Source: Thiobacillus denitrificans DSM 12475
Lineage (GTDB): Bacteria; Pseudomonadota; Gammaproteobacteria; Burkholderiales; Thiobacillaceae
Reading direction: 5' to 3'
NCBI RefSeq assembly: GCF_000376425.1
Contig: NZ_AQWL01000005.1
Coordinates: 218,166 to 282,165, forward strand
DNA length: 64,000 nt
Below the pieces are notes generated by a model. The model was not told where the DNA came from, searched no databases, and saw nothing but the letters and a program-made list of their open reading frames with translations. This document shows, piece after piece, positions 564-8,192 of this stretch (the stretch's first letter is position 1; each line of letters opens with the position of its first letter). Position numbers and translations under genes: made by a program.

Positions 564-2615
564 ATGTCCGATCAGCTCGACTCGCTATGCATCGATACGC
601 TGCGCTTCCTCGCGGTGGACATGGTGCAGCACGCCAATAGCGGCCATCCGGGCCTGCCGCTCGGCGCCGCGCCGATGGCCTACGCGCTGTGGACGCGCCA
701 GCTCAAGCACCACCCGGCCAATCCGCTCTGGGCCGACCGCGACCGCTTCGTGCTGTCGGCCGGACACGGCTCCGCGCTCCTCTACAGCCTGCTGCATCTG
801 ACTGGCTACGACCTGTCGCTGGATGACATCCGGCAGTTTCGCCAATGGGGAAGCAAGGCGCCGGGGCACCCCGAGCGCGGCCACACGCCCGGCGTCGAGG
901 TGACCACCGGCCCACTCGGGCAAGGGTTGGCGAATGCAGTCGGCCTGGCGATCGGCGAAGCCCATCTGGCGGCGCGCTATAACCGCGACGGCCACACGGT
1001 GATCGACCACCATACCTGGGCCATCGTCAGCGACGGCGACCTGATGGAAGGGATCGCCTCCGAGGCCGCCTCGCTGGCCGGGCACCTGCAACTCGGCAAG
1101 CTGATCTGCCTCTACGACGACAACAGCGTCACGCTGTCGGCCGCTACCGACATCACGTTTTCGGAAGATTGCGCCCAACGCTTCGACGCCTATGGCTGGC
1201 AGATCCTCCACGTGGCCGACGGCAACGACGTCGCCGCGATCAATGCGGCGCTCGACACCGCCCGTGCCGACACCGCGCGGCCATCGCTGATCCTGGTACG
1301 CACCCACATCGGCTTCGGCTCGCCCGAGCAGGACAGCTACAAGGCCCACGGTTCGCCGCTCGGTGTCGAGGGCGTCAAAAAGACCAAGGAAAAGCTTGGC
1401 TGGCCGGTCGATCCGCCGTTTCGAGTGCCGCAACCGGCGCTGGCGCATTTTCGCGCGGCGCTGCAACGCGGTGCCCGGGCGGAAGCCGAATGGAATGGGC
1501 GGCTGGATGCCTATGCCCGGGCATTCCCCGATCTGGCCAGCGAACTGCAGAGCCGTCTGCGCGGCGAGCTGCCGGCCGGGTGGGACGCCGACATCCCGGT
1601 CTTCTCCGCCGACGCCAGAGGCATGGCTACGCGCGTCGCCAGCGGCAGGATCATGAATGCGTTCGCGCCGAAGCTGCCTGCTCTGGTCGGCGGCTCGGCC
1701 GATCTCGACCCGTCCACCCATACCGCGCTGACGGGGCTGGGCGACTTCAATCCGGCCCCGGCATCCGGCACGGGCCGCGAAGATTCCGACCGCGACGGCT
1801 GGAGTTACGCCGGCCGCAACCTGCATTTCGGCGTGCGCGAACATGCGATGGGTGCGATCGTCAATGGCCTCGCCGCACATGGCGGCTTCATCCCCTACGG
1901 CGCCACCTTCCTGATCTTCTCCGACTACCTGCGCCCGGCAATCCGCCTGGCCGCGCTGATGGGCGTGCACGTGGTGCACGTGTTCACCCACGACAGCATC
2001 GCCGTCGGCGAGGACGGCCCCACCCACCAGCCGGTGGAGCACCTGGCCAGCCTGCGCGCGATCCCCGGTGTCACCGTGATCCGCCCTGCCGACGCCAACG
2101 AAACCGCGGTGGCGTGGCAAGTGGCGGTGGAAACCCGCGATCGCCCGGTGCTGCTGGCGCTGACCCGGCAGGACGTGCCCACGCTCGACCGCAGCCGCTA
2201 TGCCGGTGCCGAAGGGCTGCGCCGCGGCGCGTATGTGCTGAGCGATTCAAAACAAACCCGGCCCGAGCTGATCCTGATTGCCAGCGGCTCCGAAGTCGCC
2301 CTCATCCTCGCCGCCGCCGAGCGCCTGCAGGACGAAGGCATCGCGGTGCGCTGCGTGTCGATGCCGAGCTGGGAACTGTTCGACGCCCAGCCGCAAAGCT
2401 ACCGCGACGAGGTGCTGCCGCCGCACGTGCCGGCGCGCCTGGTGGTCGAGCTGGGGGTGTCCCAGGGCTGGTGCCGCTACGTCGGCGCCCATGGCGACAT
2501 GCTCGGCGTCGAACGCTTCGGCGCCTCGGCCCCGGCCGGCGTCCTGCTGCGCGAATACGGCTTCAGCGTCGACCACGTGGCCGCGCGCGCGCGAGCGCTG
2601 CTGGCGCGCCGATAG
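564..2615 (+). CDS. tkt: Transketolase
   Basis: A 683-residue transketolase, the full normal length. It transfers two-carbon ketol units between sugar phosphates in the pentose phosphate and Calvin cycles, using thiamine diphosphate. The N-terminal domain shows SGHPG around residue 28, GPLGQG near 116-121 and the thiamine-diphosphate motif SDGDLMEG, followed about 25 residues later by DDN. The middle domain has [14 protein letters not shown], the catalytic Glu in FGVREHAMG and the substrate-binding [19 protein letters not shown]. The ATG at 564 is preferred over an in-frame TTG at 546 because AGAGGGG sits just ahead of it. It may serve carbon fixation if the host is autotrophic, but no other Calvin-cycle gene is in the window. 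Confidence 0.96.
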
Positions 2616-2665
2616 ACGGCCACGGCAGCGCGGCCCGCAACCTGTCATCAACGGAGAACACGAGC

Positions 2666-2878
2666 ATGAACCATCCATTCAAGGTCGGCGACCACGTACG
2701 CTGGAACTCGGAGGCCGGCCTGGTGAGCGGCACGATCGTCCGGGTGCATACGCGCGACACACTCTACAAGGGGCACACGCGTCATTGCAGCCCGGAAGAT
2801 CCGCAGTACGCGATCAAGAGCGACAAGACCGATCACATCGCGATGCACAAGGGCGCTGCGTTGCAGCGGATAGTCTGA
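2666..2878 (+). CDS. Small TUDOR-like protein (DUF2945 / hypervirulence-associated family)
   Basis: A 70-residue protein matching the DUF2945 family, a small barrel-like domain of unknown molecular function. The family look comes from the start FKVGDHVRWNSEAGLVSGTI, followed by VHTRDTLYKGHTRHCSPEDPQYAIKSDKT and an ending in HKGAALQRI. There is no signal peptide or membrane segment, so it should be cytoplasmic. The ATG at 2666 follows ACGGAGAA with good spacing. It lies 50 bases after tkt and is followed after three bases by the DUF488 gene, so these two are probably co-transcribed. Confidence 0.85.
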   Translation: MNHPFKVGDHVRWNSEAGLVSGTIVRVHTRDTLYKGHTRHCSPEDPQYAIKSDKTDHIAMHKGAALQRIV

Positions 2879-2881
2879 GCA

Positions 2882-3427
2882 ATGCCCGCTGGAATCGAAA
2901 CGATCTGGACGATCGGCCATTCGACCCGCACGCTGGAGGCGTTTCTCGACGTGCTGGCCGCCTATCGCATCGAGGCGGTCGCCGATGTCCGGCGTTTTCC
3001 CGGCTCGCGCCGTCATCCGCATTTCGCGAAGGATGCGCTGAGTGAATCATTGCCGTCGCACGGCATCGTGTATCGGTGGTTGCCCAAGCTCGGCGGACGC
3101 CGCCCGGTGCGGCCCGATTCACCGAACGACGGCTGGCGCAACGCCTCGTTCCGCGGCTACGCCGACCATCTCGCGAGCGCGGAGTTTGCCGAAGGCCTCG
3201 ACGCACTGCTGGCACTGGCCGCGCAGCGACGTACCGCCCTGATGTGCGCCGAGGCGGTGTGGTGGCGCTGCCATCGCGCGCTGATCGCCGACGTGTTGCG
3301 CGTGCGCGGCATCGAGGTGATCCATATCGTCGATGCCACGCACAGCACGGTGCATCCCTACACTTCGCCGGCGCGCATTGTAGAAGGGCGGTTGAGCTAC
3401 GCACTGGCGCTGGAACAGCCGCCTTGA
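2882..3427 (+). CDS. DUF488 family protein
   Basis: A 181-residue DUF488 protein. Diagnostic pieces are TIGHSTRTLEAFLDVL at the start, AVADVRRFPGSRRHPHF, and near the C-terminal third the motif MCAEAVWWRCHRALIADVL, where a Cys-Ala-Glu is followed by WRCHR. The family is widespread and usually annotated as uncharacterised. The conserved Cys and His suggest a metal site or a nucleic-acid enzyme, but this is not established. It follows the TUDOR-like gene by three bases, so the two are likely one transcript. A terminator-like hairpin lies downstream. Confidence 0.87.
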   Translation: MPAGIETIWTIGHSTRTLEAFLDVLAAYRIEAVADVRRFPGSRRHPHFAKDALSESLPSHGIVYRWLPKLGGRRPVRPDSPNDGWRNASFRGYADHLASAEFAEGLDALLALAAQRRTALMCAEAVWWRCHRALIADVLRVRGIEVIHIVDATHSTVHPYTSPARIVEGRLSYALALEQPP

Positions 3428-3481
3428 TGAGTCGTCAGAAACCGGATGCGAGAAACCATTATGCGCTGCGTTCACGCAGCA

Positions 3482-3506
3482 AATGAGCCGGAAGACCCGG
3501 CTCATT
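3482..3506. terminator. Hairpin between two convergent genes, possible bidirectional terminator
   Basis: AATGAGCCGG, a five-base loop, then CCGGCTCATT form a perfect ten-base-pair stem. It sits between the DUF488 gene (plus) and the ABC-F gene (minus), downstream of both. No long T run follows on either side, so efficient intrinsic termination is uncertain. Confidence 0.45.
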
Positions 3507-3606
3507 GTTCAGCTCGGCATCGACGCGCAGCGCAATATCTTCGCCTGCGCCCACTCAACCGCGGCAGGAACACGGATGGCCAAATGCCGTCCAATTTACA
3601 GGCTTA

Positions 3607-5568
3607 TTAGCAAGTGCTCGACGCCTCCAGCGCCTCGATTTCCTCCGACAACTCCAGCCACTCCCCCTCTTCGATCGCCAGTTCGTCAATGACGTGCTGA
3701 AGCTGCCTGCCGGTTTCGGCAATCGCTTCGACGGAAATCGTCCCGACCAGGCGTGCTTCAAGCGCATTTTTTTCGACTTGAAGTGCAGCCATGCTTTTGT
3801 CGAGCTTTTCCAGCTTCTGCTTCAACGCCTTGATCCTGCCCGATGACACCGGCGGTTTTTTCGCCGCCACTGGTGCAGGCTCCGGTTTTACTTTCGGCGC
3901 TTCGACCTTTTTGCCCGCCTGTTTGAGTTCTTCGCGCAGGCGCTTGCCCTCGTCCAGTAGATAGCGCTGGTAGTCGTCCAGGTCGCCATCGAAGGGCTCG
4001 ACCCCGCCACGGCTGACCAGCCAGAACTCGTCGCACACCGAACGCAGCAGGGCACGGTCGTGGCTGACCAGCATCACCGTGCCTTCGAATTCGTTCAATG
4101 CCATCGCCAGCGCCTCGCGCGTGGCGAGGTCGAGGTGGTTGGTCGGCTCATCGAGCAGCAGGAGATTGGGGCGCTGCCACACGATCATGCACAGCACCAG
4201 CCGCGCCTTTTCGCCGCCGCTCATGGTGCCGACGGCCTGCTTGACCATGTCGCCGCTGAAATTGAAGGTGCCGAGAAAATTGCGCAGATCCTGCTCGCGG
4301 CTGCTGAACTGGCCGGCGCCGCCGTTGGCGATGGTGTCGCGGGCGAGACGGATCATGTGCTCCAGCGGGGTGTCGGCCGGGCGCAGCACATCGAGTTCCT
4401 GCTGCGCGAAGTAGCCGATGTTGAGGCCCTTGCCCTCGGTAACGGCGCCGGCGACGACCGGCAGGGTGCGCGCGATGGTCTTCACCAGCGTCGACTTGCC
4501 CTGGCCGTTGGCGCCAAGGATGCCGATGCGCTGGCCGGCGAAGACCGACTTGCTGACCCCCCGCACGATCACCGTCGGCTCGCCTGCTCCGCCCGCCGGC
4601 GGATAGCCGAAGCTGGCGTCGTCGATCGTCAGCATGGGGTTGGGCAGGTTGAGTGGCTCCTTGAATTCGAAGGTGAAATCCGCACTCGCCAGCATCGGCG
4701 CCAGACGCTCCATGCGGTCGAGCGCCTTGACCCGGCTTTGCGCCTGTTTGGCCTTGCTGGCCTTGGCCTTGAAGCGGTTGATAAAAGCCTGCAGATGGGC
4801 GATCTTGTCCTGCTGGCGGGCGAACGCCGCCTGCTGCAGCGCCATCTGCTCGGCACGCATGTCCTCGAAGGTGCTGTAGTTGCCGCCGTAGCGGGTGAGC
4901 TGGCCGTTTTCGATATGGATGGTGACGTTGGTCACCGCGTCGAGAAATTCGCGGTCGTGGCTGATCACCAGCAGGGTGCCGGGGTACTTCTTGAGCCAGG
5001 CTTCCAGCCACACCAGGGCGTCCAGGTCGAGGTGGTTGGTGGGTTCGTCGAGCAGCAACAGTTCCGACGGACACATCAGTGCGCGCGCCAACTGTAATCG
5101 CATGCGCCAGCCGCCGGAGAAACTGTTGACCGGCTGATCCAGCTCGCGCACCTGGAATCCCAGGCCGAGAATCAGGGCCTGCGCGCGCGACTGTGCATCG
5201 TGCGCACCGGCGTCGTGCAGCGCCATGTAGGCGTGCGCCATGCGCTCACCGTCGTCGCTGGCCTCGGCGGCGGCCACTTCTGCCTGCGCCTCGGCCAACT
5301 GGGTGTCGCCGGCGATGACGAAGCCGGTCGCGGACTCGGCCGTTTCCGGCATGTCCTGCGCCACCTGCGCCATGCGCCACTGCGTCGGCATGGAAAAATC
5401 GCCGCGGTCCTCGTGCAGGGTGCCATTCAGCAGCGCGAACAGGCTGGACTTGCCAGCGCCGTTGCGCCCCACCAGGCCGACCTTTTCGCCGGGGTTGATC
5501 GACACCGAGGCATTGTCGAGCAGCACCTTGGCGCTGCGCCGCAGGCTGAGATTCTTGAGGATGATCAT
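3607..5568 (-). CDS. yheS: ABC-F family ATPase, YheS type
   Basis: A duplicated ATP-binding-cassette protein without membrane segments, 653 residues from the chosen start. ABC-F proteins act on the ribosome or in antibiotic tolerance rather than in transport. Each half has a Walker A (GRNGAGKSS; GANGQGKST), a signature (NSFSGGWRMRLQLARA; GTMSGGEKARLVL) and a Walker B ending in LLLDEPTNHLD. A charged linker joins the halves, and the C-terminal tail is a Lys/Glu-rich coiled coil typical of YheS/Uup. The ATG at 5568 (MIILKNLSLRRSAKVLLDN) matches the start of E. coli YheS; twelve extra in-frame upstream codons look unconserved. The ribosome site is weak. Confidence 0.9.
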   Translation of the reverse strand: MIILKNLSLRRSAKVLLDNASVSINPGEKVGLVGRNGAGKSSLFALLNGTLHEDRGDFSMPTQWRMAQVAQDMPETAESATGFVIAGDTQLAEAQAEVAAAEASDDGERMAHAYMALHDAGAHDAQSRAQALILGLGFQVRELDQPVNSFSGGWRMRLQLARALMCPSELLLLDEPTNHLDLDALVWLEAWLKKYPGTLLVISHDREFLDAVTNVTIHIENGQLTRYGGNYSTFEDMRAEQMALQQAAFARQQDKIAHLQAFINRFKAKASKAKQAQSRVKALDRMERLAPMLASADFTFEFKEPLNLPNPMLTIDDASFGYPPAGGAGEPTVIVRGVSKSVFAGQRIGILGANGQGKSTLVKTIARTLPVVAGAVTEGKGLNIGYFAQQELDVLRPADTPLEHMIRLARDTIANGGAGQFSSREQDLRNFLGTFNFSGDMVKQAVGTMSGGEKARLVLCMIVWQRPNLLLLDEPTNHLDLATREALAMALNEFEGTVMLVSHDRALLRSVCDEFWLVSRGGVEPFDGDLDDYQRYLLDEGKRLREELKQAGKKVEAPKVKPEPAPVAAKKPPVSSGRIKALKQKLEKLDKSMAALQVEKNALEARLVGTISVEAIAETGRQLQHVIDELAIEEGEWLELSEEIEALEASSTC

Positions 5569-5671
5569 GCAGAAGATGCGGCGCGCCTGAAACGCGCCGC
5601 CCAAATCGAAAGCCGGATTCTACCTTGACGCCGCCATCCGCCTGGCGGGCGTCGGCTGTTTGCCGTCTCGA

Positions 5672-5701
5672 CACGGATTGACGACTTTCCGTCAACCCGT
5701 G
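5672..5701. promoter_or_regulatory. Interrupted palindrome, candidate enhancer-binding site upstream of a sigma-54 promoter
   Basis: Twelve-base arms CACGGaTTGACG and CGTCAAcCCGTG flank a six-base centre with one mismatch per arm. The centre lies about 129 bases upstream of the transcription start predicted from the -24/-12 element at 5790-5805, the usual range for an activator of sigma-54 polymerase. The activator is not identifiable from the site. No T tract follows on either strand, so a terminator is less likely. Confidence 0.55.
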
Positions 5702-5750
5702 CCCTGCCGCCTCTCGGGGTTTGCGGGAAACGGCTTGCAAAATATTGTTT

Positions 5751-5789: not shown

Positions 5790-5805
5790 TGGCACAGGCA
5801 TTGCA
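5790..5805 (+). promoter_or_regulatory. Sigma-54 (-24/-12) promoter
   Basis: TGGCACAGGCATTGCA matches the sigma-54 consensus TGGCACGNNNNTTGCW at every defined position except the seventh. The GG and GC dinucleotides are spaced exactly as in -24/-12 promoters. The predicted start is near 5816, about 25 bases ahead of the first small gene and 13 bases ahead of its ribosome site. Confidence 0.7.
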
Positions 5806-5840
5806 CGTATTAAGGCAAATCTCTCACCAAGGAGTGCATC

Positions 5841-5993
5841 ATGAAACTGCAATTCGGCAAAAAACAACTGGTTCTCGAACTCAGCTCCACGCCTTTTTCC
5901 TGGTTCCACGGCCAGACCGAACGCATGAGCCTCACCAGCCTGTCGCTGCTGTTCGTACAGTTTTCCCTGTTTGCCCGCCAGCCGGCCGCCTGA
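5841..5993 (+). CDS. Small protein, first member of a tandem paralogous pair
   Basis: A 50-residue protein I do not recognise. The ribosome site AAGGAG (5829-5834) has ideal spacing to ATG 5841. The N-terminus is basic (MKLQFGKKQ); a core containing P-x-x-WF-x-G-x-T-x-RMS leads into the hydrophobic stretch SLTSLSLLFVQFSLFAR. Residues 12-50 align without gaps to residues 11-49 of the next gene, with 17 identities in 39 positions, which strongly supports both being translated. The stop overlaps the next start (TGATG). The short hydrophobic segment could be an amphipathic or membrane-surface helix, but it is too short and polar for a confident transmembrane call. A sigma-54-type promoter lies upstream. 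Confidence 0.72.
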   Translation: MKLQFGKKQLVLELSSTPFSWFHGQTERMSLTSLSLLFVQFSLFARQPAA

Positions 5994-6148
5994 TGCAACT
6001 GGGCAGAAGCACCCGCGTGAGCATCAGCCTGTCATGCTCGCCGCTGGGATTTTTCAGCGGCAGCACCCGCCGCATGTCGATGTTCAGCCTGACACTGCTG
6101 TTCATCGAATTCCGCATGCTGCGGCGCGCCGCCGCATCCTGCATCTGA
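5993..6148 (+). CDS. Small protein, second member of a tandem paralogous pair
   Basis: A 51-residue protein similar to its upstream neighbour: SP-x-x-FF-x-G-S-T-x-RMS then FSLTLLFIEFRMLRR. Its ATG overlaps the preceding TGA, so translation is probably coupled; no separate ribosome site is evident. It is more Arg-rich at the C-terminus (RMLRRAAAS) and carries Cys15 and Cys50, which the first protein lacks. It ends four bases before the stop codon of the convergent histidine kinase gene. The function is unknown. The pair probably arose by tandem duplication followed by divergence, and may form a hetero-complex, but that is inference. Confidence 0.7.
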   Translation: MQLGRSTRVSISLSCSPLGFFSGSTRRMSMFSLTLLFIEFRMLRRAAASCI

Positions 6149-6152
6149 CGCC

Positions 6153-7439
6153 CTAGCGGCGGATTTCCAGCGTCGCTTCCAGACCGCCCGTCGCACGGTT
6201 TTTGAGCGACACGGCCCATCCATTGGTTTCCGCCAGCTGCCGCACGATCGCCAGCCCCAGCCCGGTTCCGCCGGTAGCCTGCGAACGCGACGCATCGAGC
6301 CGGTAAAACGGCCTGAACACCTTTTCCAGCTGATCGTCGGGAATCCCCGCGCCGGCATCGCGCACGATCACCCGTGCCTGTTTGCCGGTGCACTCCAGCG
6401 CCAGCTCGACCGGCGTGCCGCCGCCATAACGCTGCGCATTCTGGACCAGGTTGGTGACGATTTGCCGCAGTGCAAGCCGGCCGGCCTCGATCTCGCACGG
6501 CACCGCACCCTGCCATGACAGGCCGGTATCGGCCGCGACCTCTTCCAGCAAACCCGCAAGGTCGAAACGCATTTTCATTTCGGCCTGCGTGGTGCGTGCC
6601 AGCTCCAGGTAGCCCGTAATCAGCCTGTTCATGTCGGCCAGATCGGCCACCGCCCGGTCAATGCGTGCCGCGCTGGGGGCATCGCGCAGCATTTCCAGGT
6701 TGAGCTGCAGCCGCGTCATCGGGGTGCGCAGGTCGTGCGAAATCCCCGCCAGCAAGGTGGTGCGGTTATCCAGCAAGTCGCGCACCTCGGCCGCCATCCG
6801 GTTGAAACGACGAGCCAGCTCGGCCAGCTCGGCCGGGCCGGTTTCCGGCAAGGGCTCGGGCAGCTCGCCCGCGCCAACCTGGCTGGCCGCCTGCGCCGCG
6901 CGCGCCAGCGGCACGGTGATGCGGCGCACCAGAAACAGGGCGGTCAGCAGACTGAGGAACGCACCCAACGCAATCACCGCGATTGCCGCCAGCGGCGGCT
7001 TGACGGCATAGCGATCGGGGAAGAATCCGGCGTGCAGGTCATGCCCGGCCACCGGAATATCCAGCCATGCCGCCGCCGTCTCCGGCACCCCGCGCAACAC
7101 GATGGATTCGCCTAACCGGCGGCTCAATGCAGTTTCGATCTGCGCGCGAAAGGCGAATTGCGGGGCATCCGCGGTGGCGCCGGTGACGCCGGTGGTCAGG
7201 CGCAGGCCATGACGTCGCGCCAGCTCGCGTTCGAACGCGGCACGCGTCGGCGGCGGCAGCTCCACCCAGGTCTGCGCCGACAGCACGATCAATCCGGCCA
7301 GGTCGTCCGCCGAGCGTTCCGCCACCGGGACGATCAGGGTGCGATACACCACCCAGAACGCCGCCGCCTGGAACACGATGAAGGCGAGCGCCAGCGTCAG
7401 CGCGGTGCGGGCGTACAACGAGCGGGCAATGCGCTTCAC
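6153..7439 (-). CDS. envZ: EnvZ-like sensor histidine kinase
   Basis: A 428-residue inner-membrane sensor kinase that should phosphorylate the adjacent OmpR-like regulator. Order of parts: a first membrane helix near residues 12-33, a periplasmic sensor region to about 150, a second helix near 151-173, a HAMP linker, the HisKA box AGISHDLRTPMTRL with phospho-acceptor His235, the N box (QIVTNLVQNAQRYGG), the G1 box (RDAGAGIP), FRPFYRLD, and the G2 box (GGTGLGLAIV). The periplasmic part is unlike a common named sensor fold, so the signal is unknown. Its start overlaps the end of the regulator gene by four bases (ATGA), showing one operon. Confidence 0.9.
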   Translation of the reverse strand: MKRIARSLYARTALTLALAFIVFQAAAFWVVYRTLIVPVAERSADDLAGLIVLSAQTWVELPPPTRAAFERELARRHGLRLTTGVTGATADAPQFAFRAQIETALSRRLGESIVLRGVPETAAAWLDIPVAGHDLHAGFFPDRYAVKPPLAAIAVIALGAFLSLLTALFLVRRITVPLARAAQAASQVGAGELPEPLPETGPAELAELARRFNRMAAEVRDLLDNRTTLLAGISHDLRTPMTRLQLNLEMLRDAPSAARIDRAVADLADMNRLITGYLELARTTQAEMKMRFDLAGLLEEVAADTGLSWQGAVPCEIEAGRLALRQIVTNLVQNAQRYGGGTPVELALECTGKQARVIVRDAGAGIPDDQLEKVFRPFYRLDASRSQATGGTGLGLAIVRQLAETNGWAVSLKNRATGGLEATLEIRR

Positions 7440-8149
7440 CCTTTCCCCTGCGGCACGAACAGATAGCCCTGCCCGCGCTGGGTACGGATATAGGCCGGGT
7501 TGGCGGGATCGTCCTCGATCTTCTTGCGCAGGCGGTTCACCCGCACGTCGATGCTGCGGTCGAACGGGTCGCGCTCGAAACCGCGCAGCTGGTCCATCAG
7601 CCAGTCGCGCGACAGCGCGCGGTTGGCATGGGTGACGAAGATTTCCAGCAGTGCGTACTCGCCGCCGGTCAACGTGATTTCGACGCCGTCGCGGCTGAGG
7701 GTGCGGGCGTCGAGGTTGATGCTGAACGGGCCGAAGCGCTCCAGCCTGGCCGCTTCAGCCGGTGCGGGCGCAGTCGCGCCGCCCTGCCGCCGCAACACCG
7801 CGCGGATACGCGCCAGCAGTTCGCGTGGGTTGAACGGCTTGGGCAGGTAATCGTCGGCGCCGACCTCGAGACCGATGATGCGGTCGATGTCCTCGCCCTT
7901 GGCCGACAGCATGATGATGGGCGGAAACCCCGGCTGCGCGCGCAGCCGTCGCGCCACCGACAGGCCATCCTCGCCCGGCATCATCCAGTCGAGCACCAGC
8001 AGCGCCGGCAGCCGGGCGTTCAACAGGCGGTCGAGCGAAACGGCGTCCTCCGCCGTCTCGACCGCGTAGCCCTGGCTGCTCAGGTATTCGGCCACCAGTT
8101 CGCGTATGCCGGGATCGTCGTCGGTGACATAAATGGTGTCTTTTTGCAT
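7436..8149 (-). CDS. ompR: OmpR-family response regulator
   Basis: A 237-residue DNA-binding response regulator. The receiver domain has the acidic pocket DDD at residues 10-12, phospho-acceptor Asp54 in LVLDWMMPGEDG, and the stretch SAKGEDIDRIIGLEVGADD followed by PKPFNPRELLARIRAVLRR, very close to E. coli OmpR. The C-terminal winged helix follows, with TLTGGEYALLEIF, RSIDVRVNRLRKKIEDDP and RGQGYLFVP. The ATG at 8149 is chosen because homology begins at MQKDTIYVTDDD. It lacks a clear ribosome site, and the 13 codons available upstream look unconserved. A GTTACA direct repeat lies upstream in the shared divergent region. Confidence 0.92.
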   Translation of the reverse strand: MQKDTIYVTDDDPGIRELVAEYLSSQGYAVETAEDAVSLDRLLNARLPALLVLDWMMPGEDGLSVARRLRAQPGFPPIIMLSAKGEDIDRIIGLEVGADDYLPKPFNPRELLARIRAVLRRQGGATAPAPAEAARLERFGPFSINLDARTLSRDGVEITLTGGEYALLEIFVTHANRALSRDWLMDQLRGFERDPFDRSIDVRVNRLRKKIEDDPANPAYIRTQRGQGYLFVPQGKG

Positions 8150-8192
8150 GCGGCAACTATAGCAGCGGGGATGGCGGGCTATTCCCATCCCG

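Follow-up and report, generated by a model that had tools for sequence, protein, structure and literature searches.

Between an ABC-F-type ATPase gene and an EnvZ-like sensor kinase gene of the sulfur oxidiser Thiobacillus denitrificans DSM 12475 lie two very short open reading frames, orfA (miniA) and orfB (miniB), and the locus raises the question of whether these are genuine genes, how they are controlled and what their products may do. The window, that is the whole 64,000-nucleotide stretch of DNA, was analysed together with related genomes, and the features are summarized in Table 1. The sequence-only reading had described two overlapping genes of 50 and 51 codons encoding tandem paralogues. 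Coordinates and translations agreed with this, the ATG of orfB beginning on the A of the orfA stop codon (TGATG). The 17 identities over 39 gapless residues that it had counted were reproduced at an offset of 1, all of them inside A11-A49. The ungapped local score of the two proteins was 90, a value reached by none of 5000 shuffles (maximum 47), and a search of the own genome with orfA retrieved orfB (E 8e-7, 40% identity); similarity beyond chance, and with it the tandem paralogy, was thereby borne out. The GGAG of the Shine-Dalgarno-like site of orfA is kept in the genus upstream alignment (46 rows). Translation of orfA and orfB is probably coupled, and on these comparisons the two reading frames form a genuine operon that encodes paralogous mini-proteins.

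Table 1. Positions of the mini-gene pair, its control region and its neighbours in the window.
Feature	Position	Strand	Basis
ABC-F-type ATPase gene, divergent from orfA	3607-5604	-	name from sequence
Second enhancer-like element TGTTTGCCGTCTCGACA (site I)	5657..5673		genus alignment; resemblance to the 17-nt element of a PEP-CTERM-like gene
Enhancer-like palindrome TTGACGACTTTCCGTCAA (site II)	5678..5695		exact TTGNCGN6CGNCAA; conserved block in 46-row alignment
IHF-like core CAAN4TTG	5738..5747		position between palindrome and promoter; 46-row alignment
Sigma-54 (-24/-12) promoter TGGCACAGGCATTGCA	5790..5805	+	exact TGGCACN5TTGCW; conservation in family upstream regions
Shine-Dalgarno-like AAGGAG of orfA	5829..5834	+	read off the sequence
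orfA (miniA), 50-aa mini-protein, predicted all-beta	5841..5993	+	translation, genus presence, pN/pS, AlphaFold
orfB (miniB), 51-aa paralogue of orfA	5993..6148	+	translation, genus presence, overlap, pN/pS
EnvZ-like sensor kinase gene (HAMP, HisKA, HATPase_c), convergent; candidate partner	6153..7439	-	Pfam
OmpR-type response regulator gene, next to the EnvZ-like kinase	7436..8188	-	Pfam

The coding nature of the pair was analysed within the genus. orfA was present in 49 of the 57 genomes and in all 28 with a completeness of 90% or more and a contamination of 5% or less; orfB was likewise matched in 49 of the 57, with E values no worse than 5.2e-13. No internal stop was found in the 98 matches to orfA and orfB. 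Among the 45 distinct genus sequences, which were those picked out by a motif pattern, the length of orfA was 50 codons in every case and the orfB ATG lay on the final base of the orfA stop codon in 42. The pN/pS ratio was 0.195 for orfA (45 sequences) and 0.286 for orfB (36 sequences, compared over a 42-codon anchored segment cut by motif, with the other 9 rows dropped). The other two forward frames gave 0.74-4.7 and two of the reverse frames 0.81 or more; the third reverse frame gave 0.285 and 0.375, which provides no independent control because its third positions coincide with those of the reading frame. The homologous pairs under purifying selection that were named beforehand as supporting evidence are thus present in relatives, and these ratios indicate that orfA and orfB are held at the protein level and kept as a pair in the genus.

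The family was found in seven lineages of the order, namely the genera g1 (own), g4, g7 and g12 and the families f29, f35 and f50; profile searches gave the relatives in g4, g7 and g12 within the own family and in f29, f35 and f50 within the own order. Of the 44 loci retrieved when species genomes were searched with the orfA protein, 36 were from Thiobacillus or Hydrogenophilales. Of the 399 genomes in the order sample, 22 gave a match at E 0.02 and 17 were accepted as members (G000, G030, G042, G056, G068, G077, G087, G145, G249, G286, G318, G347, G376, G396, G404, G432 and G458); the five weak matches G205, G216, G319, G393 and G504 were rejected. Weak in-order matches at L220-L224 and profile rows at E 9.9e-4 or worse, some of which were inspected, were left out. 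A member was present in 8 of 10 f50 genomes and in 4 of 18 f35 genomes. The own genome was the sole accepted carrier in the class sample of 369 genomes; six others gave weak matches, and the inspection, which covered the loci L211, L212, L214 and L215 and left out L213 and L216, accepted none and found the strict sigma-54 pattern at none of the four.

Genomes of f50, f35, f29 and g7 showed the gene once, and those of g1, g4 and g12 showed the pair. In a tree of 25 members, in which 11 of the 22 inner branches are open and long branches meet, the seven A rows (g1, g4, g12) fell on one side of a branch with support of 95/100, suggesting that the gene was duplicated before these three genera diverged; the B rows were scattered among the single-copy relatives. 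The only invariant columns over the 25 rows were the T and R of a T-x-R motif, beyond which the g7 protein keeps little. The f50 members L123, L124 and L125 bear long C-terminal extensions past the 50-aa core, with 82-102 aa in total. The sequence-only reading had not recognised the family, and in accordance with this no NCBIfam match and no credible Pfam match was obtained for orfA, orfB or any of the 25 members; one member against one restriction-enzyme Pfam model (E 0.05) was taken as chance. The family profile gave no sequence match among solved structures, and the literature searched, with most subscription journals outside its scope, held nothing recognisable on the pair. A phage or plasmid origin was rejected, since orfA had no plasmid match, an f50 member had no phage match and PHROGs matches were no better than E 0.11.

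Upstream of the pair, the window holds one exact match to TGGCACN5TTGCW, and with one mismatch allowed two were found against 2.9 expected, so the promoter site alone proves nothing and the evidence lies in its conservation. A sigma-54-type site, with -24 GG and -12 GC elements at the correct spacing near the gene as expected of a sigma-54 operon, was found by a loose pattern in 66 of 67 family upstream regions and in all seven lineages, roughly 38-57 nt before the start codon; the exception, L118, carries a degenerate version. Of random 130-bp windows, 4.8% contained the loose pattern and 0.5% a stricter one. Confined to a narrower zone, the strict pattern was found in 62 of the 67 regions against 0.15% of random 50-bp windows, and the misses were one f50 region and the four f35 regions, whose sites are nearer to the start codon than the zone extends. 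The 67 regions comprise 46 from genus g1 and 21 from the six other lineages and are hence not independent; all seven lineages agree nonetheless. The site is kept in g7 despite strong divergence of the protein, and in f50 and f29 despite different neighbours. It is almost certain that the pair is coding and that it stands under a sigma-54-type promoter.

The palindrome of site II is likewise the sole exact match to its pattern in the window (six with one mismatch allowed, 4.9 expected). Located about 95 nt ahead of the promoter, it begins some 162 nt ahead of orfA; enhancer sites of sigma-54 promoters lie roughly 80-200 bp upstream, and the candidate site falls within this range. The conserved form in 46 genus sequences is TTGACGG-N4-CCGTCAA, from which the window differs by one base. 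The palindrome pattern was present in 46 of 51 distinct upstream regions and, with the other lineages added, in 50 of 67, and it was not met in those of f50, f29 and g7. Palindrome and promoter at the given spacing were found in 42 of the 57 genus genomes, against 0 of 57 for a reversed control pattern, and once per genome except for two occurrences in G030. In that genome (L188, on G030:C32) an insert of four genes occupies 2287-4734 between the ABC-F gene and orfA, with c-type-cytochrome-like, NapC/NirT-like and putative exported proteins among the products (names from sequence); the palindrome and sigma-54 region stands there both before orfA and before the insert, one promoter copy being near 4843-4969. 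An ungapped search of five genomes with one mismatch revealed no other palindrome sites as a regulon, the matches to the palindrome and to the reversed control being 13/11, 8/3, 9/9, 8/8 and 7/3.

A second conserved block of the 46-row alignment, site I, ends in TTCGACA. Between palindrome and promoter there is a CAAN4TTG core as in the IHF consensus, which was found in 33 of 66 upstream regions against 3.5 expected from mononucleotide shuffles and is absent from the other 33. Enhancer, bend and promoter in this order are the usual plan of a sigma-54 operon. A terminator-like hairpin with a T run at 5720-5741, also between palindrome and promoter, overlaps the IHF-like core; one such site is expected by chance. 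Sequence comparison thus shows the mini-genes to be preceded by a conserved sigma-54-type promoter with an enhancer-like palindrome, and this control region, including the IHF-like core, is absent from the sequence-only reading.

The possible activator was sought among genes with the PF00158 domain, which were listed for 17 genomes; 100 were fetched and grouped by reciprocal best hits. The sets of the carriers G000 (10/10) and G249 (8/8) were complete and those of G114 (5/6), G145 (11/12), G087 (6/9), G060 (8/9) and G396 (12/13) incomplete; G318, which gave one activator only, was excluded from the count. Five non-carriers were fetched in full (G102, G103, G210, G166 and G338), a non-carrier being a genome with no match at the search thresholds, which a strongly diverged copy could escape. 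The comparison left out G274, G505, G007 and G077, which were listed and not fetched. Among the fetched activators, only PrsR and an NtrC-like group, which we take to be such from its C-terminal sequence, occurred in all seven carriers; the NtrC-like group was also present in all five non-carriers, and PrsR was present in two of these and absent from three. A third group (L264 and relatives) occurred in six of the seven carriers and in three of the five non-carriers; the carrier without it is G087, whose incomplete set may explain the gap. The assignment of PrsR is by TIGR02915 (607.8 bits in G000 and 589.7 in G060; cut-off 502.6). On this distribution PrsR, the regulator of the exosortase/PEP-CTERM and exopolysaccharide system, is tentatively favoured as the activator, at somewhat short of an even chance, and NtrC and one further activator group remain candidates. 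PilR was rejected, as the 10 activators of the own genome include no member of the PilR-like group, a name based on its C-terminal sequence. Sigma-54 needs an activator with an AAA+ domain, and the OmpR-type neighbour was rejected as its Pfam hits do not include one.

According to the published description, the PrsR element is 17 nt long, ends in TTTACA and lies 32-92 nt (mean 62.8) before the promoter (PMC1569441). No such element was found at that distance before the orfA promoter, whose palindrome differs in having 16-18 nt, no TTTACA and a spacing of about 95 nt. A custom pattern, used in place of a family model on 1.26 Mb of the own genome, recognised one PEP-CTERM-like gene (in L366; G000:C2:267369-268307), near the PrsR gene; two other candidates were judged false. 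Its upstream region holds a 17-nt TGTCG...TTTACA element with a sigma-54-like site following at 63 nt, and both length and spacing agree with the element as given in PMC1569441. Site I before orfA resembles the reverse of this element. A joint pattern for the two elements was written after both sites had been seen, and what it gives is a lead only and not a test: accompanied by a sigma-54 site it occurred nowhere else in the 1.26 Mb, and by itself it was found in 31 of the 67 family upstream regions against 0.115% of random 200-bp windows.

AlphaFold predicts orfA as five beta strands with no helix at all (mean pLDDT 86.7), and a five-stranded all-beta meander is its likely fold. The core hydrophobic/basic helix at the membrane surface, which had been suggested from the sequence, finds no support in this prediction. 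The sheet is clearly two-faced only in the strands 2-5, 8-14 and 39-46, three of the five; from this one-sided hydrophobic pattern the complex formation suggested in the same note is plausible, and dimerisation of the mini-proteins could equally be true or false. The hydrophobic C-terminal stretch of orfA, SLTSLSLLFVQFSLFA, would suit peptides at or in the membrane, for example of a toxin-like or MgrB-like kind. Such a role is improbable, as the all-beta prediction is of high confidence, an E stands within the equivalent stretch in orfB and the other non-A rows, the chromosomal position is conserved in the genus and the plasmid search with orfA and the phage search with an f50 member were both empty. 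The best reading is that orfA and orfB are soluble, probably dimerising beta adaptors, enhancer-activated and acting in trans.

The neighbours bear on the partner of these putative adaptors. In Thiobacillus the ABC-F gene was found in 44 of 44 loci (L062-L105) and the EnvZ-like kinase beside the pair in 38 of the 42 testable ones, L062 and L083 ending within about 150 bp after orfB. The kinase also adjoins the mini-gene or pair in all five g4/g12 loci, all three g7 loci and three of four f35 loci, with glyQ on the other side in g4, g12 and the kinase-bearing f35 genomes L190 and L194. Adjoining in five of seven lineages, it is the best single candidate partner, albeit an unlikely one. It is conceivable that the pair is a dedicated connector, the mini-proteins binding the kinase and raising or lowering its activity once the sigma-54 activator fires; this would join two signalling routes by analogy with MgrB and PhoQ or DUF1127 proteins and PhoR. 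Small kinase-binding proteins are known (PMC12501420; PMC8404706) and fit such a connector along with the adjacency, yet it is quite unlikely, as the linkage to a kinase, whose constancy is a non-strict mark of kinase-binding connectors, was found not to be constant. Four of the 42 Thiobacillus loci (L070, L073, L074 and L096) have the pair and no such kinase within the following 4.8 kb or so, and the kinase was not matched at the fourth f35 genome (L154, L189), where a transposase-like reading frame (named from sequence) is present. The f50 gene mostly stands against a glycerate-kinase-like gene, which overlaps or adjoins its 3' end in 7 of 8 loci (L118-L121, L123, L125 and L193), with a dehydrogenase-like gene there in the eighth, L124 (both named from sequence); the f29 gene lies elsewhere, and the fetched f50 and f29 loci gave no match to the EnvZ-like kinase. 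Convergent overlaps of about 30 bp with the glycerate-kinase-like gene were seen at L119:1450-1480, L120:1453-1483, L121:1450-1480 and L118:827-857.

A gap of 4 nt, with no terminator-like site found in it, separates the stop codon of orfB from that of the kinase gene in the window, so an action in cis was also considered, in which sigma-54 transcription through orfAB into the convergent kinase gene would yield antisense RNA with the proteins as by-products. This is very improbable in view of the purifying selection on the protein frame, the GC-rich hairpin with a T run after the mini-gene in 4 of 4 f35 loci (L154-L157) and the keeping of the gene where the neighbour differs. Since what accompanies the gene in every lineage is the promoter and not a neighbour, an action in trans is favoured.

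As an overall explanation, an enhancer-activated operon of paired mini-protein adaptors acting in trans is an evenly balanced proposition. An enhancer-binding protein responding to some signal would bind the palindrome, IHF would bend the DNA between palindrome and promoter, and sigma-54 polymerase would then make a short transcript from which both proteins would be produced in coupled fashion. Pairing may take place over the hydrophobic faces of the sheets, either as A-B dimers or as homodimers of each, and the product would serve as a small adaptor, binding a partner protein and adjusting it; the likely contact or turn is the invariant T-x-R motif. The dependence of sigma-54 control on an activator suggests that the product is needed only under a specific signal. 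The pair adds a family of very small proteins outside the Pfam and NCBIfam models with an unusually well-defined control region, by which the condition of expression should be traceable, with one sigma factor and some ten activators to follow. Should the proteins turn out to adjust a kinase or a function in exopolysaccharide formation, regulatory systems of these bacteria would be connected by a small-protein link that is new. It is a long shot that the pair represents an undescribed class of enhancer-activated heterodimeric beta-sheet adaptors relaying the state of PrsR to a separate EnvZ/OmpR-type system; this would be a cross-talk route built from two 50-residue proteins.

Compared with known systems, the likeness to the C-terminal part of RseB/MucB is in fold only. 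DUF1127 is a Pfam entry, to which no match was obtained at E up to 10 for orfA and orfB or at E up to 1 for the 25 members. DUF1127 small proteins (YjiS and relatives) are often shorter than 50 aa and have been shown to bind the sensor kinase PhoR (PMC12501420); the mini-proteins resemble them in very small size and differ in the missing Pfam match, the all-beta prediction and the sigma-54-type promoter. MgrB, described in PMC8404706 as a 47-aa membrane protein that inhibits PhoQ, is alike in size and is a small regulator of a two-component system, but it resides in the membrane whereas orfA is predicted to be all-beta, the comparison of sequences being by family libraries only. The PEP-CTERM tail (PEP motif, hydrophobic span and basic tail) is absent from orfA and orfB. 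In their control regions the mini-genes resemble the PEP-CTERM genes governed by PrsR and sigma-54, with a long upstream region, an enhancer element and a sigma-54 site; the orfA palindrome differs in its right arm and longer spacing, and the left arm TGTCG of the PEP-CTERM-like gene of the own genome recurs in the palindromes of some mini-gene lineages.
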